A program made the position numbers and the translations under genes. From Verrucomicrobiota bacterium (GTDB lineage: Bacteria > Verrucomicrobiota > Verrucomicrobiia > Verrucomicrobiales > DEV007): a DNA stretch of 42,478 nucleotides. The notes beneath the pieces were generated by a model. That model did not search any database and was not told where the DNA came from. It saw only the letters and a list, made by a program, of their open reading frames with translations. Positions 18,775 through 36,527 of this stretch are shown here, piece by piece. The stretch spans positions 30,189 to 72,666 of the forward strand of contig JAHDID010000027.1 in the NCBI GenBank assembly GCA_020630975.1, in the 5' to 3' direction. Within the stretch, counting starts at the first letter, position 1, and every line of letters begins with the position of its first letter.

Positions 18775-20175
18775 TTAGCCTAGCACGGTGCGTAGGTTCG
18801 CTATGACTTGTTCATCCTGCTCTGGCATGATGGTGCGTAGATCTAGGCGGTATTTGTCTTCAGCGATGTAGCCGATCATGGGGGCGTCTAGGCTGCGCAG
18901 TTTAGCGGCGAGCTTTTTCACGCTCATGCTGGCGGGCTGGATGTCGATCGTCACCGAGGGCATCTCTGCCTTGGGCATGGTGCCGCCACCGCAGCGGGCT
19001 AGGCTTTCGCCGATGGTGATTTGATCGGTGTTGAGAGCCTTTAGGATGGCTTCGGCCCTGGGCTGGAGTTGGTCGACGGTGAGTGAGAGTTTGCGGACCA
19101 GTGGCAGATCGGTCTCGGCGCCTGATCGACCGTGCAGATACTCCATGGCGGTCTCCTGTAGGCCGGTGAGGATCAGTTTGTCGCACCTAGTGGCTCGGAA
19201 AAATGGTTCCTTTTTGATACCGGCGACCAGATCGGCGCGCCCGGCAATGATACCGGCCTGAGGGCCGCCAAACAGCTTGTCGCCAGAGACGCAGACGAGA
19301 TCGACACCACGCTGCAGTACCTCGGTAGCAGTAGGCTCGTGGGGGATAGGGGCGAGGCTATCGGTCTGGACCATCGCTCCGGAGCCGAGGTCTTCGATCA
19401 CGGGTAGATGGTGCTTGTTGCCTAGTTCGACGAGCTCCTCGGTAGTCGGTTCGTGGGTGAAGCCTTCGATGTAGAAATTCGAACGGTGCACCTTCAGCAG
19501 CATGCCAGTCCGCTCGGTGATGGCGTTTTCGTAGTCTTCTAGAGAGGTTTTGTTGGTAGCGCCCACTTCTACCAGCTTGGCACCACTCACCTCCATGATC
19601 TCGGGCACACGGAATCCACCGCCGATCTCGACTAGCTCGCCGCGAGAGATGATCACTTCGTTCTTCTCGCCATTGGCGAGATGCTTCAGGATCAGGATTA
19701 GGGCGGCGGCGCAGTTATTGGCAACAGTCGCGGCCTCTGCTTCGATCAGCTTTGCCAGAGCGACTTCGAGAAAGCCGCCGCGCTTGCCGCGCTCACCGGT
19801 ACCGAGGTCGAGCTCGATATTGTTGTAGTATTGGCCGACTTGAGTCAGCTTCTGCACGACGGTGGCTGAGAGCGGTGATCGGCCGAGATTGGTGTGGATG
19901 ATGACGCCTGTGCCATTGATGACGGGGTGGATCCGCGACTGGTAGAGGCGAAAGATATCGGCTTTCACGTCGGCTGCTATGGTGTCGAAATCTGCGATCT
20001 CCTCAGCTCCCTCGCGTATGCTCTGGCGGAGGGCCTCGATTTTGTCCCTCACCAGATCGGTCACCATAGGGATCGGTAGAGGCGCGACGCTGGCGTCGGT
20101 CTCGAGAGCGTGGAGGAGTTTGTCCACAGCTGGGATCTGAGCGTAGAGCTGGTTGTTTTGCTTTTTGGAGGCCAT
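18775..20175 (-). CDS. selA: L-seryl-tRNA(Sec) selenium transferase SelA
   Basis: PLP enzyme that converts seryl-tRNA(Sec) to selenocysteyl-tRNA(Sec) using selenophosphate. The 466 aa length is normal. Motifs: N-terminal IPAVDKLL, the HPVINGTGVIIHTNLGRSPL signature, LGTGERGKRGG, the NNCAAALILIL helix, and the PLP lysine K300 in VSGDKLFGGPQAG. C-terminal substrate-binding parts are intact, so it should be active. selB, selC and selD are not in the window. Three 21-bp direct repeats end exactly at the ATG, in the place where promoter and ribosome-binding site would be. The gene stands alone between rpsR (convergent) and an unrelated membrane protein (divergent). Confidence 0.95.
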   Translation of the reverse strand: MASKKQNNQLYAQIPAVDKLLHALETDASVAPLPIPMVTDLVRDKIEALRQSIREGAEEIADFDTIAADVKADIFRLYQSRIHPVINGTGVIIHTNLGRSPLSATVVQKLTQVGQYYNNIELDLGTGERGKRGGFLEVALAKLIEAEAATVANNCAAALILILKHLANGEKNEVIISRGELVEIGGGFRVPEIMEVSGAKLVEVGATNKTSLEDYENAITERTGMLLKVHRSNFYIEGFTHEPTTEELVELGNKHHLPVIEDLGSGAMVQTDSLAPIPHEPTATEVLQRGVDLVCVSGDKLFGGPQAGIIAGRADLVAGIKKEPFFRATRCDKLILTGLQETAMEYLHGRSGAETDLPLVRKLSLTVDQLQPRAEAILKALNTDQITIGESLARCGGGTMPKAEMPSVTIDIQPASMSVKKLAAKLRSLDAPMIGYIAEDKYRLDLRTIMPEQDEQVIANLRTVLG

Positions 20176-22773: not shown

Positions 22774-23856
22774 CTAGCTGAAAAAGCCACGTTGTTTTTC
22801 GGATATCGGTAGCCCGAGCATCTCCATGGCGCGCAACATATCTTCCCAGACTTTGCGCTTCTCTTGGCGGGCGTACTCTTTGTCCGGCTCGGTGTCGAGC
22901 TTCACCAGGTGGCTAGGGTGATAGGTGACGATGACGGGGATGCCATCGAGCTGGAATGTCTGGCCGCGTAGGCTATTCACCGAGCTGCTTTGCTCGATCA
23001 GGCCTTCGGCAGCGGTTTTGCCGAGGGCTACGATGAGTTTGGGTTTGATCACTTCGATCTCGGAGCGGACGATTTTCAGCGAGACGGCGACTTCTTCCGG
23101 CGTCGGCAGGCGGTTTTTGTCCATCTGATGCCTGCCATCGCCGATCCGGGGGCGGTATTTCAGCAGGTTAGTCAGGTAGACCTTTTCGCGGGCTAGGCCC
23201 ATGGCTTTGAGGATGCCGTCTAGCTTTTGGCCTGAGGGGCCGACGAATGGCTTTTTCTGCTGCTCTTCCTCAGCACCAGGCCCGGTGCCGATGAACATGA
23301 TGTCCGAGGTGGGATCGCCTGCGGCAAAGACCATCGTGTCGTGCAGTGTCGCCATGCTGCGGGTGATATCGTCCTGCTTGGTGATGCGAAACAGATTGTT
23401 CAGGCGGTCGCGCACGGAATCGCCTGCTGGGTGGATGACGAGGACTCGGCCCCGCTGCTCCACTGCGGTAGCTAGCTCGCCATAGGGATTGTCGAGGGCG
23501 ATAGCTGGCTGAGCAGGCTGCGAGACAGGCTCAGGGGAGGGTGGTGCTGGCTCTGGCTGAGTGGTGGCTACTGGCGGCGCTACCACTACTGGAGCGGGTG
23601 CGGGTGCTGGGGTAGGCTCGATGGGCGCTGCTGGAGGAGCAGGGGAAGGAGTCGGTGCTGGCGCAGCGGGCTGGGCTGGAGCTGGAGCTGGAGCTGGAGC
23701 TGGAGCTGGAGCTGGAGCCGATGCTCGATTCAGGGCAAAGGGCAGTTGTGAGAGCTGTTGCAGAGCCTGAGCACTCACGGCGATCGTCTCTTCACCCCGC
23801 GAGCGTTTACGCTGTAGGATGCGACTGAGAGTGTCTAGTGCATTGGGTAGAGACAT
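22774..23856 (-). CDS. family-4-like uracil-DNA glycosylase without iron-sulfur cysteines
   Basis: 360 aa. The C-terminal 215 residues have the UDG superfamily fold of family 4: motif GTGPGAEEEQQ (from G190) followed by PFVGPSGQKLD, LTNLLKYRP in place of the usual NVVKCRP, the strand IVALGKTAA, and the HPSHL motif with H313. Family 4 enzymes carry four Cys that bind a 4Fe-4S cluster; this protein has no cysteine anywhere. It should remove uracil from DNA if active. The first 45 residues are helical and residues about 46-125 form an Ala/Pro-rich linker (AP dipeptide repeats). It overlaps or nearly touches genes on both sides. Confidence 0.85.
   Translation of the reverse strand: MSLPNALDTLSRILQRKRSRGEETIAVSAQALQQLSQLPFALNRASAPAPAPAPAPAPAPAQPAAPAPTPSPAPPAAPIEPTPAPAPAPVVVAPPVATTQPEPAPPSPEPVSQPAQPAIALDNPYGELATAVEQRGRVLVIHPAGDSVRDRLNNLFRITKQDDITRSMATLHDTMVFAAGDPTSDIMFIGTGPGAEEEQQKKPFVGPSGQKLDGILKAMGLAREKVYLTNLLKYRPRIGDGRHQMDKNRLPTPEEVAVSLKIVRSEIEVIKPKLIVALGKTAAEGLIEQSSSVNSLRGQTFQLDGIPVIVTYHPSHLVKLDTEPDKEYARQEKRKVWEDMLRAMEMLGLPISEKQRGFFS
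23675..23716. repeat. seven-copy 6-bp repeat (GCTGGA) in the UDG linker
   Basis: Seven perfect tandem copies of GCTGGA on the plus strand encode alternating Ala and Pro on the coding strand. The unit is in frame, so slippage would change linker length only. It is part of a longer, less perfect Ala/Pro coding stretch. Confidence 0.85.
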
Positions 23857-27935: not shown

Positions 27936-27970
27936 AGAAAAATTGTGCTTGGTTTATACTATGGTACTAC

Positions 27971-27986
27971 CAGACAGACTTGTCTG
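27971..27986. promoter_or_regulatory. candidate TetR operator
   Basis: CAGACA (27971-27976) and its inverse TGTCTG (27981-27986) with a 4-base centre: perfect 6-bp arms. It overlaps the expected promoter of the TetR gene (a TAGTAT/TATAAA lies between it and the ATG). Palindromes of this shape and position are typical autoregulatory sites of TetR-family repressors. Confidence 0.55.
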
Positions 27987-28046
27987 AAAGTGATTTTTTT
28001 ATAAGTGTTTCAGCGAGAGAGGCTAGTTTCCAGGGATTTGTCACTC

Positions 28047-28065
28047 AATACTCCCGAGGGGTATT
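28047..28065. other. hairpin downstream of the kinase gene
   Basis: Arms aatactcc and ggggtatt (8 bp with one G-T pair), loop cga, 27 bases after the kinase stop. No clear T tract on either strand; possible weak terminator or RNA stabiliser between the kinase and TetR genes. Confidence 0.4.
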
Positions 28066-28091
28066 ATTGTAAGTCGCTTGTTTTAAGTGAT

Positions 28092-29672
28092 TTATATAGA
28101 TTTCTTCTGGGTGGCGAGAGGTAAGGTTAGCGTCATTACCGTACCATTGCCGAGTTCGCTCTCTGCAGATAGGCTGCCAGAGTGTAGTTCCATGATGCTT
28201 TTGCACATGCTCAGTCCGAGACCATTGCCGTGTGGGGCTTTGGTGGTGAAGAATGGCTCGAAGATTTTTTTGAGATTTTCTTCTGAGATCCCGCATCCGC
28301 TATCGCTGACAGAGATGTGAGCTTCTTCGTCGTCGCAGTCTATCTCCAGGGTCACAGTAGGATCATCGATAGCCTCTGAGGCGTGGATGGCATTAATGAT
28401 GAGATTCATCATTACTTGTTTCAGTAGGGCCCGATCCGCCTCGATGAGGAGTGGTGCGGCGGCTGGGGTTTGAAAGATCAGGTTGCAGCCCTTTTCGCGA
28501 ACCTGAAAGCGCAAAAAGTCCGCTGTATCCTCCACTAGACTGCAGAGGTCGCAGACCGCCTTGGTGAAAGTGGGTGGCTTGGATAGCTGTAGCAGGCGCT
28601 CGACGGTTTCCGAGGATTCTGTAGCGCAGTCGCTGATCAGAGTGAATGCCTCTCGGATTTCGGGGAGATCAGTTATCTCTTTTGCTTGGCTATAGATCTG
28701 AGCAAAGCCAAGCACTGGCGAGAGTTTGCTATTGATCTCATAGGCGACTCCATCGATCAGCGTATTCAGCAGTAGGTTTTTCTCTTGAGAGGCCATTTGG
28801 CGCTCAAATTTGCGGCGCTTGGTGATATCGTCGATTTGCACTATGATTTTTCCTGTCTCGCCCACAAAAAACGCTATGCCGCTGATCTCGCGTAGCAGGT
28901 CTGGACCCAGTTCCATGACGGCCTCGATGCGAGCCGAGCGAGTGTCTTCTAGTCTTCTAAAGGTCTCCGATAGCAGCTTTTTCTGCTCATCTGAAAAGAG
29001 GTCGAAGAAATTGTGTTCTGTCGACTCTGGAGAGACTTCGGTGATCTCCTGAAACCGGTCATTATGGGCTTCGATCGTCCCATCTGGTGCGGTGATCGCG
29101 ATGCCGAGGATCGCATTGTCGAAACGAATGTCGAGACCACTGGTCTTAGCAGACCGTTCGTTTTGAGAGTCGATAGTTCGATATCTGTCTTGTAGCTTGT
29201 GTCGTAGTGTCTCCAGTTCTTTGGCTTGGTCTCTCGATAGTAGCCATTGGTAGTGGACGAGGTCTTTGGCGGTGATGATACCGCACACTTTTCGATCGTT
29301 ATCGATGACTACGGCATCGTTTTTTAGGTCGGGGGCTAGCTCGTTTACAAAGGCCTTTTCTGCTGCTTCTGCGAGTGTGGCCTCTGCTGGTAGCACCAGT
29401 ACATTGGGAGCTAGATGATCGACGATGGGGCTAGCCCGATAGAGAGAAAAACCATACTGGCTACTGAGTAGAGCGGCATGCGACTGCCGAGACACTAGTC
29501 CTAGGTAAGTCTGGTCTGCTGCGAGGACGACTACGACATTGTCCCGAATCTTGCCGAAGAGATCATGCACATCTTCCACCGTAGCATGTTGAGGCACGGT
29601 CTTTGCTGCAATCACTAGGTCGGCAAGACGGGTAGTCTCACAGACGGGCGTTAGATGGGACGGGGGTTCCAT
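28092..29672 (-). CDS. CBS-PAS sensor histidine kinase lacking the phospho-acceptor His
   Basis: 526 aa, soluble. Order: paired CBS domains (about residues 10-150), helical linker, PAS domain (about 180-285; GIAITAPDGTIEAHNDRFQEIT), DHp helices (about 295-365) and HATPase domain (about 395-520). The ATP site is intact: N-box MMNLIINAIHAS, G1 SDSGCGIS, F-box IFEPFFTT, G2 GNGLGLSM. In the H-box, where kinases have AHEINNPL, this one has AYEINSKL: residue 311 is Tyr (TAT; His would be CAT). It cannot autophosphorylate on His at that place. No response regulator gene is adjacent. CBS domains suggest adenylate-nucleotide sensing. Confidence 0.9.
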   Translation of the reverse strand: MEPPSHLTPVCETTRLADLVIAAKTVPQHATVEDVHDLFGKIRDNVVVVLAADQTYLGLVSRQSHAALLSSQYGFSLYRASPIVDHLAPNVLVLPAEATLAEAAEKAFVNELAPDLKNDAVVIDNDRKVCGIITAKDLVHYQWLLSRDQAKELETLRHKLQDRYRTIDSQNERSAKTSGLDIRFDNAILGIAITAPDGTIEAHNDRFQEITEVSPESTEHNFFDLFSDEQKKLLSETFRRLEDTRSARIEAVMELGPDLLREISGIAFFVGETGKIIVQIDDITKRRKFERQMASQEKNLLLNTLIDGVAYEINSKLSPVLGFAQIYSQAKEITDLPEIREAFTLISDCATESSETVERLLQLSKPPTFTKAVCDLCSLVEDTADFLRFQVREKGCNLIFQTPAAAPLLIEADRALLKQVMMNLIINAIHASEAIDDPTVTLEIDCDDEEAHISVSDSGCGISEENLKKIFEPFFTTKAPHGNGLGLSMCKSIMELHSGSLSAESELGNGTVMTLTLPLATQKKSI

Positions 29673-29796
29673 AGGTATGGGGGAGATTTAATTTAATCGA
29701 AGTTTTAATGATTTCAATAAGATGAGCCGGTTAACTTTTTCGCCGCATTAAGTTTTTATTAGCTGCTTGGTCTTATGGTGGCAGGGTGACTGCCTG

Positions 29797-30216
29797 TTGA
29801 GAGTGTTGAGAACCAATCGGAACCGAGGTTTTACCCTGCTGGAGAATCTTCTGGCGTTGGGGATTTTCTCGATTGCGATGATCGGTATCATCGAGTGCTC
29901 AGTGGATGTGGTGGCATTGGTCGATGATTTTGGCACGAGCAACCGGCACCGACAGTTGGCCGATGCGAGGCTGCTGATGCTGGAGCGGACGCTCGATATA
30001 CCAGAATCACCCCGCACGGTAGCAGACGAGCAGGACCCGACGATACTGTACCGCGAGCGGTCTAATCCTTTGCCTCTGAAAACTCAGGATGGCTCCGAGC
30101 TGGATGGGCTAGTAGAGGTGGAAGTCATTGTCTTGAAAAAAGGCGGCAGCGGACGCGGCGACAAGGAACTGTCGCAAGCATCTCGGTGGATCAATCGCAA
30201 TTTCGAGCGGCGCTGA
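29797..30216 (+). CDS. gspI: type II secretion minor pseudopilin, GspI-like
   Basis: Prepilin-type protein of about 139 aa and first gene of the secretion operon. The N-terminus is basic, then RGFTLLENLLALGIFSIAM: Gly at -1, Phe +1 and Glu +5, the prepilin peptidase site followed by the hydrophobic helix. Its position directly ahead of J and K and its short size fit GspI. There is no ATG; TTG at 29797 is chosen because it leaves a short basic leader (RVLRTNRNR) and has AGGG 10 bases before it. GTG at 29803 is an alternative, and the frame is open to a TTG at 29767. Confidence 0.8.
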   Translation: MRVLRTNRNRGFTLLENLLALGIFSIAMIGIIECSVDVVALVDDFGTSNRHRQLADARLLMLERTLDIPESPRTVADEQDPTILYRERSNPLPLKTQDGSELDGLVEVEVIVLKKGGSGRGDKELSQASRWINRNFERR

Positions 30217-30224
30217 AGAAAGAG

Positions 30225-30848
30225 ATGAGGACTGCCTGCTATCGCCCGAGTCGACGGGCATTTACGCTACTGGAGGTGATCGTATCGATGGCGATCACTA
30301 TGCTGCTGGTCACGCTGGCGATTCGCAGTCTGCTGACGATCCATGAGCTGTCTGTGGATGTGACAGAGAGTCATCTGCAGCAGCGCGAGATCGAGTATTT
30401 TTTCAATGCTTGTGAGACGGCTTTCGATGGGCTGTCGAATCGATCGGCCGTTACCTTCGAGTACCAAGAGCTCAACAATCGCTATGACACTTATCTGGTG
30501 CTGACCGAGGCACCAGATGCCTTTCGCATCGGTATCGATCAGCGTAAGAGGGTCGACCACGTGCTTCTGGCAGCCGAGCACCGCAAAGATGGCTGGCTGC
30601 GTGTGAGTCTGTATTATCTCGATCAGATCGAGTTTGGTCAGGTGAAAAAATTTGGCTTTGGCGCGGTAAAAACCTACCCCGGCATCACACTGATCAATAA
30701 GGCTCAGCAACTTTCGTGGCGTTTTTTCAATCCCAATACCAAGACCTGGCAGAACACGATCGTTGGATATAGACCGACCTTGGTCGAATTGTCCCTGCGT
30801 CGCCCGGAGGATATCCAGGCGACCACCCAGACCTACGCCCTGAAGTGA
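30225..30848 (+). CDS. gspJ: type II secretion minor pseudopilin, GspJ-like
   Basis: 207 aa from the ATG at 30225, which lies 8 bases after the stop of the I gene and behind a purine run; the frame is open from 30186. The prepilin box is RRAFTLLEVIVSMAI: Glu at +5, but Ala, not Gly, at -1, which prepilin peptidases process less readily. The body is beta-rich (WLRVSLYYLDQIEF, LSWRFFNPNTKTW) as in GspJ. GspJ caps the pseudopilus with I and K. Confidence 0.82.
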   Translation: MRTACYRPSRRAFTLLEVIVSMAITMLLVTLAIRSLLTIHELSVDVTESHLQQREIEYFFNACETAFDGLSNRSAVTFEYQELNNRYDTYLVLTEAPDAFRIGIDQRKRVDHVLLAAEHRKDGWLRVSLYYLDQIEFGQVKKFGFGAVKTYPGITLINKAQQLSWRFFNPNTKTWQNTIVGYRPTLVELSLRRPEDIQATTQTYALK

Positions 30849-31780
30849 AGACGCAACTATACCCACAATCGCATCGGCGCTCGGCCAGCACACTATTGTT
30901 TGTGCTGTGGATCATTGCGTTCCTCTCAGCGATTGTTTTGGCCCTGTCGAGTAAGGTGACTGGCGATCTGGTGAGTAGCGTGAATCGCCGCGATCTGGCG
31001 ACCGCTGAGCAGATGGCCGATCGGGGTTTTGTGGTGGCCAGTCATAAATCGGTGAAAAATGGCGATCCAGTGCTGGAGCAAAGATTTCCCAATGGCGGGG
31101 CTTTCAGTGCGCTAAAGACCAAGGAAGCAGCGCTGATCAATCCCAATCATGTGCTCGCTAGGCAGCCCGCTCTGCTCGAGGAGATGATCGTCCGCTGGGG
31201 GGCACCCCGGTATCTGGCGATCGATGCGATCGAGGCGCTGCAGGACTGGGTAGATCCCGATGATCAGGCTGCTGCCGGAGGCTCGGAGCAGAGGCTCTAC
31301 CTAGAGCGAGGTAGGATAGGGCATCCCTACAATCGGCCATTTCTGAATAGCTCAGAGATGCTGCTGGTCGACGAGTTTCGAGTGGTGACCGAGCTCAGAC
31401 CCGATTGGGCGGATATGATGACGTTTCACAGCACCGGGCCACTGGATCTGGCAGTCGCCGATGCTGAGACGATCCGGCAGCTCACGGGGCAGCCTATCGG
31501 TATCTTGCAGCAGTTCGTCGAGTATCGCGATGGCGAGGATGGCATCAATGGCACAGATGATGATGCGCAGCTCGGCAGTGTCGAGCTGTGCCTAGAGCTG
31601 ATGGGGCTGGATGAGAGCCTAGCTCCTGCCTTTGCGGAGATCCTCACGCTCCAGTCGAATATCGAGAAAGTTGTGGTCACGGGGAGTGCTCGGGGAATAG
31701 CCATTGAAAAACAAGTAACCTATCAATATCGTGGCCGCATACTGGATGTGCTGGCGACATCGACCAAGCCCAAAAACTGA
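30845..31780 (+). CDS. gspK: type II secretion pseudopilin tip protein, GspK-like
   Basis: 311 aa. The GTG start overlaps the stop of the J gene (GTGA). The N-terminus is basic with a hydrophobic helix STLLFVLWIIAFLSAIVLAL; as in known GspK it lacks Glu at +5, but there is also no Gly before the helix, so the cleavage site is unclear. The alpha domain carries ALQDWVDPDDQAAAGG and the phrase RPFLNSSEMLLVDEF, both characteristic of GspK. Two acidic clusters (YRDGEDGINGTDDDA) could bind calcium as in E. coli GspK. Confidence 0.9.
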   Translation: MKTQLYPQSHRRSASTLLFVLWIIAFLSAIVLALSSKVTGDLVSSVNRRDLATAEQMADRGFVVASHKSVKNGDPVLEQRFPNGGAFSALKTKEAALINPNHVLARQPALLEEMIVRWGAPRYLAIDAIEALQDWVDPDDQAAAGGSEQRLYLERGRIGHPYNRPFLNSSEMLLVDEFRVVTELRPDWADMMTFHSTGPLDLAVADAETIRQLTGQPIGILQQFVEYRDGEDGINGTDDDAQLGSVELCLELMGLDESLAPAFAEILTLQSNIEKVVVTGSARGIAIEKQVTYQYRGRILDVLATSTKPKN

Positions 31781-32982
31781 TGCGACTTTCTAACCAGATC
31801 ATTGCCCCCTCCGAGCCAGAAGGCTGGGCCTGCTACGACATAGGGCGAAAGAAGTGGCTGGCCGATCGCCCAGGCAGGTCGCGGTCGAACTATCTCTATG
31901 CCATTCCATCGCAAGATATGGTGTCGATCCCGAAGTGGATCAATAGCACAGATCCAGCTGTGATCGCTGGCATCGTCCAGACGGAGATCGAGACCTACCC
32001 GATCGAAGTGGAGCTGGAGCCTGGCACGGTCTACACTCATGAACTGATCCGGCAATCCGGCGGCCGATCGCTGGTGCATATCGTGCTGATGCTGAGAGAG
32101 CCAGAGGCTAGCGGCAGCGGGCATTTTCAGGCTTACTTTCCTCAGGTCGCCTATCTGCCTCCTCCGCCGGACTCTGTGGCGCTGTGGCGTGAGGGCGGTG
32201 TGTGGGTGGCGGGCCATACGGCTAACAATCGGTGGGCTCATTTTACGTTGCTGGGCAATCCGAAGAGCCCACAGGCACTGGCTGGCAGTCTCATGCGCAC
32301 ATCTGCAGAGCTCATGCTGAAGGAGGTGACTACGGGGACGGACTCGGTCGTGATCTGGACAGATGAGGATGATGCCATCGATCCGGCGGTGTTTCGGCCG
32401 CATTTTTCTGAGGTGGCTGTGGCACCGCGCCCTGCCTTGCGAAAGCCGAGTGTGGATAGCTATCGCATCATCCCAAACTCCGTGGCTCGTGCCACACAGC
32501 AGAAGAAAAAGCGCGACGAGAATATCCAGTTCGCCTTTCTTATCCTGATTATGATTTTGCTGGCGGCGGGTTTTCTCGCCTTTGACCTGCGCAAGCGCAC
32601 CAAGCGCAACGCCGAGGTACAGGCCGAGCTGATGGCACTGCAGCCGGTCGCAGCTGAGATCTCTGGCATCCAGGCCCGCTGGCAGGCCCTCGACTCGATC
32701 TCCACTCCTGCTCGATCGCCGCTGGAGGTATTATATCAGTTGAGCAAGGTCGCAGGTGAGCGAGGTATACGCTTCAGCTCATTTGAGATGCGCGATGAGT
32801 CGACGGTGATTTTTGATATGCAGGCTGGCTCGATGCAGGATGCGACAGCTTTTGAAGCCAAACTGGAAAACTCGAAGGAATTGGGACTGTATAGGTGGGT
32901 CTTTTCTTCTCCGCGCTCTCCAAAAGGTATCGTCACTCGCTCTTGTACGGGCGAGCTAATCACAGAAAGTACTGATGAGTAG
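31780..32982 (+). CDS. GspL-like inner-membrane platform protein
   Basis: 400 aa; its ATG overlaps the previous stop by one base (TGATG). Residues 1-240 are a soluble cytoplasmic part with no clear identity; GspL has an actin-like cytoplasmic domain here. A membrane helix (about 248-268, FLILIMILLAAGFLAF) leads into a coiled coil (about 270-300) and a small beta domain (about 320-385) with SPLEVLYQLSKVAGERGIRF and DMQAGSMQDATAFEAKL, like the ferredoxin-like periplasmic domains of GspL/PilN. Gene order and layout support GspL; sequence alone does not. Confidence 0.68.
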   Translation: MRLSNQIIAPSEPEGWACYDIGRKKWLADRPGRSRSNYLYAIPSQDMVSIPKWINSTDPAVIAGIVQTEIETYPIEVELEPGTVYTHELIRQSGGRSLVHIVLMLREPEASGSGHFQAYFPQVAYLPPPPDSVALWREGGVWVAGHTANNRWAHFTLLGNPKSPQALAGSLMRTSAELMLKEVTTGTDSVVIWTDEDDAIDPAVFRPHFSEVAVAPRPALRKPSVDSYRIIPNSVARATQQKKKRDENIQFAFLILIMILLAAGFLAFDLRKRTKRNAEVQAELMALQPVAAEISGIQARWQALDSISTPARSPLEVLYQLSKVAGERGIRFSSFEMRDESTVIFDMQAGSMQDATAFEAKLENSKELGLYRWVFSSPRSPKGIVTRSCTGELITESTDE

Positions 32983-33490
32983 TCGCGAAAGAAACCTAGT
33001 AATCGCTTTTGTCGCGCTGATCTGCTGCGCCGTCATCCTTTTTGGCGCACGGTACTACAAGTCCAAGCGCAAGACTCTGGATACGGAATACCAAAATATC
33101 ACGCAGGAGGTCATGGAGCTGCAAGCTATGGTTGCTGATAGTGAGCGCTGGACCGTGCGCGAGCAGTGGCTGAATGAGAATCTACCTGACTACATCGATG
33201 ATGAGAAAATGCGCCTCGCGTTGGCGCAGGTCATCAGCAACACCAAGGGCTATAAGCTGGAGATCTCCGAACAGGAGTTTCCCGACCCGACTGTGGAGTC
33301 TCATTTCGCTGTCGCAAAGGCATCCTTCCGCGCGACGGGCGAGCTAGACGAAGTGCTCGTCTGGCTGCAGTCACAGATCACCAAACACAAATTTCTCACC
33401 ACACCATTCATCAACATCAATCAACCTGAGGACAATGAGCCTGTTTTCGACATCAAGGTGCATCAATACTACGCCAAGCCTCAGCTGTAG
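32975..33490 (+). CDS. GspM/PilO-like platform protein
   Basis: 171 aa, overlapping the previous gene by 8 bases (ATGAGTAG). One membrane helix (about 8-25) is followed by a coiled coil (KRKTLDTEYQNITQEVMELQAMVADSE) and a small alpha/beta domain that ends in FININQPEDNEPVFDIKVHQY. This is the standard plan of GspM and PilO, which pair with GspL and PilN in the inner-membrane platform. Sequence identity with known GspM is not obvious by eye. Confidence 0.68.
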   Translation: MSSRERNLVIAFVALICCAVILFGARYYKSKRKTLDTEYQNITQEVMELQAMVADSERWTVREQWLNENLPDYIDDEKMRLALAQVISNTKGYKLEISEQEFPDPTVESHFAVAKASFRATGELDEVLVWLQSQITKHKFLTTPFININQPEDNEPVFDIKVHQYYAKPQL

Positions 33491-34193
33491 AGCTGGGTTC
33501 TGGGGGCTCGTCTTGTGTTTCGGTTTGTCCTGTGAATGGGCAGTGAGTGAAGAGGGGCTCCTCCCCAAACCGACATCACCGAGCCTTTATCGACGAGAGT
33601 TTTCATCGTCTATTTTCCAGCGCGAGCTAGTCCAGTCAAAGACCGTAACCGAGCGCGAGGTGAATGACTTTGCTAGCCAATATCAGCTAGAGGGACTAGT
33701 GAGCGATGGCGCTCAGGGGAATCTCGCTTTCGTCAAAGACCTGAAGGACAACCGACTGATGGTGGTGACTCGAAAAACCAATGCCGACGGCATGAAGATG
33801 ATCGACTCAAAGATGGGCAGTCCCAAGGAGAGTTACGTGATCATCGCTAAAGGCACGCAGCGAGGCACTCTGCGGTACAATGATAGCCGATTTCAGAACA
33901 GGGCGGCCAATGCAAAGGCGGCTGCAACTCAATCAAAAAAGCCAGGGAAATTCCCTCCAGGCATGTCGATGTCGAACGCACCGAGACCCGGCCAAGTGCC
34001 TGGCCAGAATGTGGTGTCCGATCCATCAGCCATGCCTCCGGGGATGATGCCGTCGCCCAATGCTCCTAATCCCGCAAATATGACCCCGAATAACGAGATA
34101 CCTGGGGCGTTGCCGCCGATCCCTGGGATGAGTGAAGATATGTCTCGCAATGTATCCAAAACACGCCAGAATGGAGTGAATCCCGGCCCTTAA
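33435..34193 (+). CDS. periplasmic protein in the secretion operon; candidate GspC/PilP functional analogue
   Basis: 252 aa. The start ATG lies inside the previous gene (56-base overlap) and is preceded by GAGG, so translational coupling is likely. A weak signal segment (about 20-37) leads to a region (about 65-140) with QYQLEGLVSDGAQGNLAFVKDLKDNRLMVV and ESYVIIAKGTQRGTLRYNDSRF, which has the look of the HR domain of GspC or PilP that touches the secretin. The last 100 residues are disordered, rich in Pro, Met, Asn and Gly. It sits directly before gspD, as gspC often does. I infer the role from place and shape only. Confidence 0.6.
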   Translation: MSLFSTSRCINTTPSLSCRAGFWGLVLCFGLSCEWAVSEEGLLPKPTSPSLYRREFSSSIFQRELVQSKTVTEREVNDFASQYQLEGLVSDGAQGNLAFVKDLKDNRLMVVTRKTNADGMKMIDSKMGSPKESYVIIAKGTQRGTLRYNDSRFQNRAANAKAAATQSKKPGKFPPGMSMSNAPRPGQVPGQNVVSDPSAMPPGMMPSPNAPNPANMTPNNEIPGALPPIPGMSEDMSRNVSKTRQNGVNPGP

Positions 34194-34232
34194 CTCTCCC
34201 ATCATCTGCCCATCAACACTGCCAAACAATCA

Positions 34233-36527
34233 ATGAGACTTCTTGCTATCCTACTACTGGCTTTCAGCTCAGTGGCTTGGTCGCAGGATCGTATGTTTCA
34301 AGGAAACACCGGTGAACTTCGCGATATCCGTCTGCAGTTTTTCGAGGCAGATATCGAGAGCATTATCCTGCTTTACGAAAATTACACCGGCCGCAGCTTG
34401 ATGCAGGATCCCGCATCGGCTGGGAAAAAGATCACTATCCAGACTTCGGCGGTTATGACTCGAGCCGAGGCGGCTCACTTCATCGAGCACACTTTTCTGC
34501 TCCACGGTTTCGCTGTGGTGCCGACTCAGGATCCGGACTACTGGAAGCTAGTCGCAACGGGGGACAATATTAACAAGGAGTATATCCCGATCATCCGCCA
34601 CGAGCTGGAGATCCCACGCACTGAGGAGGTGATCACTTACATTGCGCCACTGCGGCACATTTCTCCGAATGAAGCGTCTGAGGTATTGACGAGTATCGTC
34701 ACACTCAATCCCTATGGCAAAGTCGTGGCTCTGCCGAGTGCACGATCTCTGATCATTACCGAAAGTGGCTCGAATGTGCGGCGTATGCTGGCTCTGCTAC
34801 GTGAGATCGATCTGCGCAATGTGCCGCGTATCGATAAGCTCATCTGTCTGCAGCGTGCTTCAGCGGAGGATGTGGTGGCATCGCTGACTGAGATCTACTC
34901 GGATCAGGCTGCAGCTCCGCGTCAGTCGAATCAACGCACGGGTGGAGCAGCTGCAGGTATGCCTGGTGGTGTGCCGGCTGCAGCGGCAGGTCGATCAAAC
35001 CCGCTGCCTCAGGACCGCGAGGACGCGCCTATTTTCCAGGCGATCACCAGATCAAACAGTGTCTTGGTGGTGAGTACACCCGACGAGATGGTCGATATCG
35101 AGCGGTTGATCGGTTATCTCGATGCGCCTTCGGAATTGGCGAATTTCATCAAGATCCGTCTCAATTATCTGCGTGTGTCAGATTTTCTGACCATAGCTGG
35201 CGATACGCTGACTCGCGGTCAGACCAGTGAGCAGGGTGGAAATATATCGGGCAACAACGGCGGTACGCAGAACACGGGTAACCTCAGTAACAACAATCTC
35301 GCTATCGGTAGCAATACGGGCACGGGTAGTAGTGGCAGCGGGCTGACGGGGGCTGCGTCGCTGGGTAGTTTGTCCGAGGAGAGTCGGGTCGGTCCGCAGT
35401 CTCTCGTAGTGGGTAAGACACTGCTCGTCGCAGACAATGATCACAATACTTTGATCGCCTCTGGTCCGCCGGAAGATCTGCTTTTGATAGAGGAGCTGGT
35501 AAAGGTGATGGATCTCAAGTCGGACCAGATCCAGATATCTGCAGTCATCGCCCAGCTCACGCTTACGGATGACTATGCCTTTGGGGTCGACTTTCTGCGC
35601 ACGCTGCCAGGCAATGTGGACGGCAGTGATGCAGCTCTAGGGTTTCGCTCTCGCCAGGGCACCCAAGGCGGCCTAGTGGATGTGGATTCTCTGAGCACCG
35701 CGGCGAATTTGATCAGCGGGACGACGGCTGGGTTCAATCTATTTGGGCGCCTCAATTCCAATCTCGACGGTTTGCTCTCGACCTTGGAGACCACCAGTCG
35801 TTTCAAGGTGCTGTCTCGCCCTACCGTTTACACGATCAATAACCGGAAGGCGATCATTCAGACCGGTCAGCGGGTGGCGGTGCCGCGCAGTACATTGTCT
35901 TCGCTCAATCCCAATGGAACTAATTCCAATCAGGTGGTCACAGCTAATATCGACTTCGAGAATGTATTGCTCCGTGTCGAAGTGATTCCGCTGATCAATA
36001 AGGATGGTCAGATCACCCTGCGCATCAATCAGTCGAATGATGATATTGTAGGCTCGCAGACGATCGGAGGTGATCAGATCCCTACCATCGGGACTCAGGC
36101 GCTGGGCACGACGATCATGGTGCCGGATGGGCGTACAGTCTTGCTAGGTGGTTTGATCTCCGAAGAAGATCGCCGCGACGAGCAGGGATTGCCGTTATTT
36201 GCCAATGTGCCATTCCTAGGGCGTGTGGCAGGCTCTCGTGCTGACAATGTCGATCGCCAGGAGCTGCTGATCTTTATCCAGCCCAAGATCATCAACAGCA
36301 ATGCGAAATACTTCTGCGTCGATGAAGATCTCATCGATCGCACCCGAGTCGGCTCCGATGGTGTTGATTTTTCTGAGGGGACTGTCGATAACCTGCCATC
36401 ATTCGAGGCGCGTGAGTTCGAGTCTGCCGAGAAACGCATGCGCGGTTTTGGCAATCTGCTGCGCAAGATCAAGGCAAAGAAAGAGGGGCAGAGCATCCAG
36501 GCTGTACCAGTCTTTGATCGGCCTTAA
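34233..36527 (+). CDS. gspD: type II secretion outer-membrane secretin
   Basis: 764 aa with a signal peptide (cut near AWSQ). N0/N1-type domains follow: IRLQFFEADIESIILLYENYTGRSLM, HFIEHTFLLHGFAVV, then NEASEVLTSIVTLNPYG and further N-domain repeats with Gly/Asn-rich linkers (about 230-260 and 330-385). The secretin core (about 510-690) has LSRPTVYTINNRKAIIQTGQRV, GTTIMVPDGRTVLLGGLI and VPFLGRVAGSR with RQELLIFIQPKII. It forms the outer-membrane channel of the system whose I, J, K, L and M genes lie upstream. No Shine-Dalgarno motif precedes the ATG. The gap downstream begins with hairpins, so it is likely the last gene of the operon. Confidence 0.95.
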   Translation: MRLLAILLLAFSSVAWSQDRMFQGNTGELRDIRLQFFEADIESIILLYENYTGRSLMQDPASAGKKITIQTSAVMTRAEAAHFIEHTFLLHGFAVVPTQDPDYWKLVATGDNINKEYIPIIRHELEIPRTEEVITYIAPLRHISPNEASEVLTSIVTLNPYGKVVALPSARSLIITESGSNVRRMLALLREIDLRNVPRIDKLICLQRASAEDVVASLTEIYSDQAAAPRQSNQRTGGAAAGMPGGVPAAAAGRSNPLPQDREDAPIFQAITRSNSVLVVSTPDEMVDIERLIGYLDAPSELANFIKIRLNYLRVSDFLTIAGDTLTRGQTSEQGGNISGNNGGTQNTGNLSNNNLAIGSNTGTGSSGSGLTGAASLGSLSEESRVGPQSLVVGKTLLVADNDHNTLIASGPPEDLLLIEELVKVMDLKSDQIQISAVIAQLTLTDDYAFGVDFLRTLPGNVDGSDAALGFRSRQGTQGGLVDVDSLSTAANLISGTTAGFNLFGRLNSNLDGLLSTLETTSRFKVLSRPTVYTINNRKAIIQTGQRVAVPRSTLSSLNPNGTNSNQVVTANIDFENVLLRVEVIPLINKDGQITLRINQSNDDIVGSQTIGGDQIPTIGTQALGTTIMVPDGRTVLLGGLISEEDRRDEQGLPLFANVPFLGRVAGSRADNVDRQELLIFIQPKIINSNAKYFCVDEDLIDRTRVGSDGVDFSEGTVDNLPSFEAREFESAEKRMRGFGNLLRKIKAKKEGQSIQAVPVFDRP

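Follow-up and report, generated by a model that had tools for sequence, protein, structure and literature searches.

What does a histidine kinase do when its acceptor position carries a tyrosine? The question arises from an open reading frame in a 42,478-nucleotide stretch of contig JAHDID010000027.1 (assembly GCA_020630975.1, a Verrucomicrobiota bacterium), the whole of which we call the window. A preliminary description, made from the DNA letters, had noted an intact ATPase behind a substituted acceptor site and had proposed a pseudokinase, or a protein signaling through ATP binding, heterodimers or another acceptor. From the analysis presented here, the gene most likely encodes a pseudo-histidine kinase without phosphotransfer, resembling DivL by convergence, or else represents an early step of decay.

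The kinase gene and its surroundings

The gene occupies positions 28092-29672 on the minus strand and runs from an ATG start to a TAA stop over 526 codons; the 526-residue product has the order CBS-CBS-PAS-DHp-CA and lacks a receiver. Its H-box is encoded by GAT GGA GTC GCC TAT GAG ATC AAT AGC AAA CTC (DGVAYEINSKL), in which TAT (28742-28740, that is 28740-28742 on the minus strand) places Tyr311 at the phospho-acceptor position. Frame, codon and residue are thus as first described; the strand is an addition to that description. Four residues further on, at H+4, stands Ser315 (AGC, 28728-28730, minus strand). In kinases of the HisKA type the phosphatase residue at H+4 is usually Asn or Thr, so this protein is without acceptor, phosphatase residue and receiver alike. 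The DHp two-helix domain spans residues 291-372 (28557-28802, minus strand; HisKA E 0.013, below the cut-off), and a second His that might serve in place of the first was not found there in the residue list, the histidines of the protein lying at residues 6, 29, 36, 65, 86, 140, 158, 203, 220, 430, 452, 481 and 497. The HATPase_c domain (residues 413-520; 28113-28436, minus strand; Pfam E 8.6e-27) retains complete N (N423, N427), G1 (DSGCG), F (FEPFFTTK) and G2 (GNGLGL) boxes, in agreement with the preliminary description. Measured against a canonical HisKA kinase, the protein has the four-box ATPase and, with Tyr311, lacks the acceptor His; its substituted acceptor in an otherwise recognisable DHp-CA module is the sequence mark of a pseudo-histidine kinase. 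Since the stop codon is TAA, extension of the protein by selenocysteine insertion or readthrough was rejected. The window does contain a gene for the selenocysteine synthase SelA (18775-20175; PF03841, E 8.1e-123), and the organism may therefore use selenocysteine.

Structure prediction gave a poor full-length model (pLDDT 55), and a DHp-CA model was taken instead (pLDDT 81, from 11 sequences). This model contains the DHp helices and matches solved kinases: its ATPase part superimposes on the CA domain of HK853 with Z 24.2 and 1.6 A over 155 residues, and the DHp-CA module aligns with DivL (4q20) with Z 23.0 and 6.3 A over 201 residues. This last deviation is large, perhaps owing to the relative placement of the domains, a matter on which a monomer model cannot decide.

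CBS and PAS domains had been described ahead of the kinase core, and both were recovered. The second CBS domain (residues 88-141; 29250-29411, minus strand) matched Pfam PF00571 with E 4.7e-10 and is preceded by a CBS-like first repeat; at a relaxed E-value two CBS stretches were matched in Pfam. The PAS-like domain, at about residues 184-284 (28821-29123, minus strand), is weak. Its best match was PAS_9 (E 0.0027), followed by weaker matches to PAS_4 and PAS_8, the last of which is matched by 9 of 18 family members. It had also been suggested that the CBS domains measure adenylate nucleotides, a suggestion that proved weakly based. The motif GhhT/SxxD makes the ribose contact in CBS (Bateman) modules. 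The window kinase has it complete in CBS2 (GIITAKD), and two relatives, G024 (GIVSRRD) and L079 (GLCSRTD), in CBS1; elsewhere among the aligned family members it is incomplete. By this sign, adenylate binding is not a conserved feature of the family.

The kinase gene is followed by a 156-base gap (27936-28091, minus strand) and a tetR-like gene. A promoter and terminator scan stayed at chance level. Divergent from it, at 29767-36527, lie type II secretion-like genes, among them two of pseudopilin type with an N-methylation motif, a T2SS protein K and a GspD-type secretin. A link of the kinase to type II secretion was considered and rejected, the NCBIfam T2SS_HK model scoring 95 against a cut-off of 450; no type II secretion genes were seen around the orthologues in G024 and G007 when the frames were inspected by eye, without a family scan. 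Over 15 loci compared, no conserved neighborhood emerged: the kinase itself formed the largest cluster (12 loci) and no other cluster exceeded five, in a gene picking crude enough that the kinase frame fell outside its own cluster in three loci. Elsewhere in the window, 22774-23856 encodes a member of the uracil-DNA glycosylase superfamily whose N-terminal tail is long and rich in Pro and Ala.

Histidine-bearing relatives and the missing receiver

We searched for relatives at increasing taxonomic distance, in genome samples that overlap and each of which counts the window's own genome. In that genome, a 158-contig assembly, the kinase search returned 41 matches including the window gene. Eleven of these had no locus and were left out; 29 other loci were compared, five of which did not align at the site, and His was present in all 24 that aligned across the acceptor position. 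Orthologues were found in three of the 33 genomes of the genus, three of 74 in the family and three of 386 sampled in the order: the window's own genome and those designated G024 and G007. The order count comes from a profile search that replaced an earlier one made with a strict cut-off and three candidates scored per genome. The G024 protein, whose gene contains a run of N, is 49% identical to the window kinase over the C-terminal two thirds and 39% over the CBS part; the G007 protein is 32% identical. A profile of the CBS region had matches in 45 of the 384 genomes sampled from the class and in 21 of 387 from the phylum, many of the matches being proteins of other design.

Among the 54 loci L062-L115, 15 align with the window kinase without a break, CBS region through ATPase. 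Together with G007 and G024 and the window kinase they make up an 18-row alignment, in which the 15 loci and G007 are 26-34% identical to the window kinase, the range widening to 26-49% when the sister G024 is included. The window kinase belongs to this family, having the same CBS region at its N-terminus and, after it, a homologous PAS-DHp-CA portion. The 15 loci were first chosen by eye from an H-box listing; the alignment alone yields the same 15, so the choice is independent of the His. His311 and Asn315 are present in 17 of 17 other members, in the form HE[IL]NN[KR]L and not the AHEINNPL first given for the family. Across all 54 loci, the 28 that align over the site have His and the other 26 do not align there. 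The preliminary description had asked whether Tyr marks a clade. No such clade was found: among 33 genus, 74 family, 386 order, 384 class and 387 phylum genomes there was no second Tyr. One member of the family, L079 (genome G491), shows damage of the reverse kind: it retains His, G2 box and receiver intact, but its G1 box is DSREG where the motif is DxGxG.

The relatives are orphan hybrid kinases of the order CBS-PAS-HisKA-HATPase-receiver. Pfam Response_reg was matched in 16 of 18 members of the alignment; the two exceptions are the window kinase and L078, whose contig ends ahead of the receiver position. The window kinase itself is not a hybrid, as it has no Response_reg match and ends directly after the ATPase, whereas its sister retains His, H+4 Asn and receiver. 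No receiver remnant was detected in the 156-base downstream gap, either when the whole window was searched by tblastn with two receivers or by three-frame reading, and the best tblastn matches anywhere in the window were at chance level (E 0.31 for the G024 receiver; E 0.044 for the G007 receiver, at 32777-32607). Relocation of the receiver within the genome was rejected as well: the best match was 37% identical and lies inside another long frame. The original remark on the lack of an adjacent response regulator holds for the two flanking genes; it overlooks that in the relatives the receiver is carried in the same polypeptide.

Read against these relatives, the sequence shows that the gene has lost the acceptor His, the Asn at H+4 and the receiver, and has kept complete ATP-binding boxes and an open coding frame. 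The loss of the H+4 Asn and of the whole receiver, beside that of the His, supports the pseudokinase proposed at the outset. We therefore favor, at roughly 60%, a pseudo-histidine kinase that is specific to this lineage and descends from an orphan hybrid, and which would regulate by contact and without phosphate flow.

Distribution of changes along the protein

A tree of the family joined the window kinase and G024 with 100/99 support, most deeper branches being without resolution, and the end branch of the window kinase was about 2.6 times that of its sister (0.93 vs 0.36). We then compared the two at those alignment columns whose conservation among the 16 other members reached 93% or more. 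In the DHp, three of 16 such columns are changed in the window kinase (H311Y, N315S, I356T) and none in the sister; in the ATPase, three of 31 are changed in the window kinase (Q416L, D472E, F513M) and likewise three of 31 in the sister. The window kinase is also changed at 6 of 17 conserved CBS columns and 5 of 12 in linker plus PAS; five of the six CBS columns are changed in the sister too, once its N-terminal piece is added.

Changes unique to the window kinase or unique to the sister were counted by domain, the majority residue of the family serving as outgroup. The p values given are nominal, uncorrected for the number of domains and cut-offs. In the DHp there were 16 window-only against 3 sister-only changes (p 0.004) and in the ATPase 19 against 8 (p 0.052, borderline), compared with 16 against 19 in the CBS region, 7 against 7 in the linker and 6 against 11 in the PAS. 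Stricter conservation cut-offs gave 12 against 2 and then 8 against 0 for the DHp, and 12 against 6 and then 6 against 3 for the ATPase; with G007 alone as outgroup the counts were 5 against 7 (PAS), 11 against 4 (DHp) and 12 against 13 (ATPase). These counts indicate that the excess change sits in the DHp, is at most milder in the ATPase and is lacking in the sensor domains. Within the DHp it extends to helix 2, part of the dimer bundle, at T356, V357 and R359.

The strongest rival explanation is decay: a non-essential orphan hybrid was truncated ahead of its receiver and is drifting, the DHp changes came early and the product is functionless. The long branch, the borderline ATPase excess, the coding score and the GC3 also fit relaxation or decay. 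The coding score of the gene (0.204 in the kinase frame; -0.40 and -0.43 in other frames) is the lowest of ten window genes compared, the other nine scoring 0.214-0.399, and its GC3 (0.56) is again the lowest of the ten (others 0.61-0.71). Low GC3 together with the patchy family (3 of 386 in the order) could mean horizontal transfer. That only three of 33 genus and three of 386 order genomes carry the gene, the window's own counted, suggests that it is dispensable; no partner gene was found, and the Tyr form is a single example, so that selection to keep the Tyr cannot be shown. Yet the 526-codon frame is open and still scores as coding, the nucleotide-binding boxes are intact with no more conserved ATPase columns changed than in the sister, and the CBS, linker and PAS regions, where general decay should show too, have no excess change. 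On balance we regard decay as doubtful, although it has to be taken seriously.

Interpretation and comparison with known systems

A protein that has lost its acceptor and retained its ATPase boxes might instead be one half of a heterodimer, its ATPase phosphorylating the DHp His of another kinase in trans, or the protein modulating that kinase, and would then still belong to a phosphorelay. Such pairing has a described precedent in Corynebacterium, where kinase-dead ChrS pairs with HrrS (PMC9491836). Here, however, the genome gave one family profile match, and the other kinase matches begin at residue 169 or later; with no second CBS-PAS family member found in the genome, there is no close partner for dimer mixing. 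The changes in DHp helix 2, which belongs to the dimer bundle, also argue against this explanation, and we judge it improbable.

It is very unlikely that the protein is active as a kinase of an unusual sort, with Tyr311 or another side chain accepting the phosphate. A hydroxyl does stand at the acceptor place and the boxes of the ATPase are intact, but DivL, the studied Tyr case, is described as lacking autophosphorylation (PMC4211667), and with N315 and the receiver also lost no downstream acceptor is evident. Least probable of all is a one-base sequencing or assembly error: His and Tyr codons differ by one transition (CAT to TAT), the assembly is in 158 contigs, and all aligned orthologues have His, the very result that the preliminary description had tied to an error or private mutation and which leaves the Tyr private as far as searched, but a lone error would have to coincide with Ser315, the absent receiver and the DHp excess in the same gene.

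The pseudo-histidine kinase reading entails a particular mechanism. The protein would carry out no His autophosphorylation, no phosphate transfer and no normal phosphatase activity. It may still dimerise and, to judge from its motifs, bind ATP, and CBS or PAS input or ATP itself might alter its shape. Instead of handing on phosphate, it could then act on a partner by contact, whether another kinase or, as DivL does, a response regulator. A more specific version, which we put forward as tentative, is a recent natural conversion of a hybrid kinase into an allosteric sensor blind to phosphate: the three losses would have occurred together on one branch under constraint on sensors and ATPase boxes, and ATP binding itself, read through CBS/PAS input and DHp contacts, would be the output switch. 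If so, signal flow would be reversed as in DivL but with an independent origin, and the His-bearing sister (49% identical) would be a ready control.

Substitution of the acceptor His, by Tyr among other residues, is put at about 1% of sequenced histidine kinases in a commentary (PMC5361649), which also describes few bacterial cases as having been studied; at that rate a single case in a genome with some 41 kinase matches is unsurprising. The literature searched, as far as titles and the openings of abstracts tell, holds no report of a CBS-PAS kinase with Tyr at the acceptor position. Acceptor-substituted kinases as such are already known, and what this locus adds is the detail of a linked loss of receiver and H+4 residue beside a His-bearing sister. 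The case carries limited weight, coming from one genome and having no known partner. It is nevertheless testable, since the sister keeps the His state and the losses are legible together, and it is well suited to the question whether a dead kinase can retain a regulatory role driven by ATP.

The closest parallel is DivL of Caulobacter crescentus (PDB 4q20). As described, DivL has Tyr550 in place of His, lacks kinase and phosphatase activities and binds and senses DivK~P; its ATP-binding motifs are kept, but its binding of an ATP analogue is weak (PMC4211667), so intact boxes in the window kinase are no proof of ATP binding. The two proteins share Tyr for His, intact-looking boxes, PAS input and the DHp-CA fold. 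They differ in that DivL has multiple PAS domains, Tyr across its alphaproteobacterial homologues (one Ala exception is described) and DivK and CckA as partners, whereas the window kinase has CBS domains and a private Tyr. By sequence it is not a DivL orthologue: in a phmmer search 4q20 was distant, ranking 21st among the 44 solved sequences listed (E 5.6e-13; best 9.8e-27), and the nearest relatives found are His-bearing hybrids. For the chloroplast sensor kinase CSK, green algae are reported to have Tyr or Gln, and higher plants Glu, in place of the acceptor His, and the plant protein to bind an ATP analogue without detected autophosphorylation (PMC5054060). CSK differs in lineage, input and cell compartment, and its plant form is described as having a modified ATP-binding domain. 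The ChrS variant of Corynebacterium glutamicum is likewise presented as a pseudo-histidine kinase with a regulatory effect in the absence of catalysis; its ATPase was broken by a frameshift in laboratory evolution (PMC9491836), whereas in the window kinase the boxes are intact and the acceptor is lost. The orphan CBS-PAS hybrids (G024, G007 and the 15 loci), finally, have the domain order of the window kinase up to the ATPase and, unlike it, possess the His, the H+4 Asn and the receiver, the last in 16 of 17 with one cut by a contig end.
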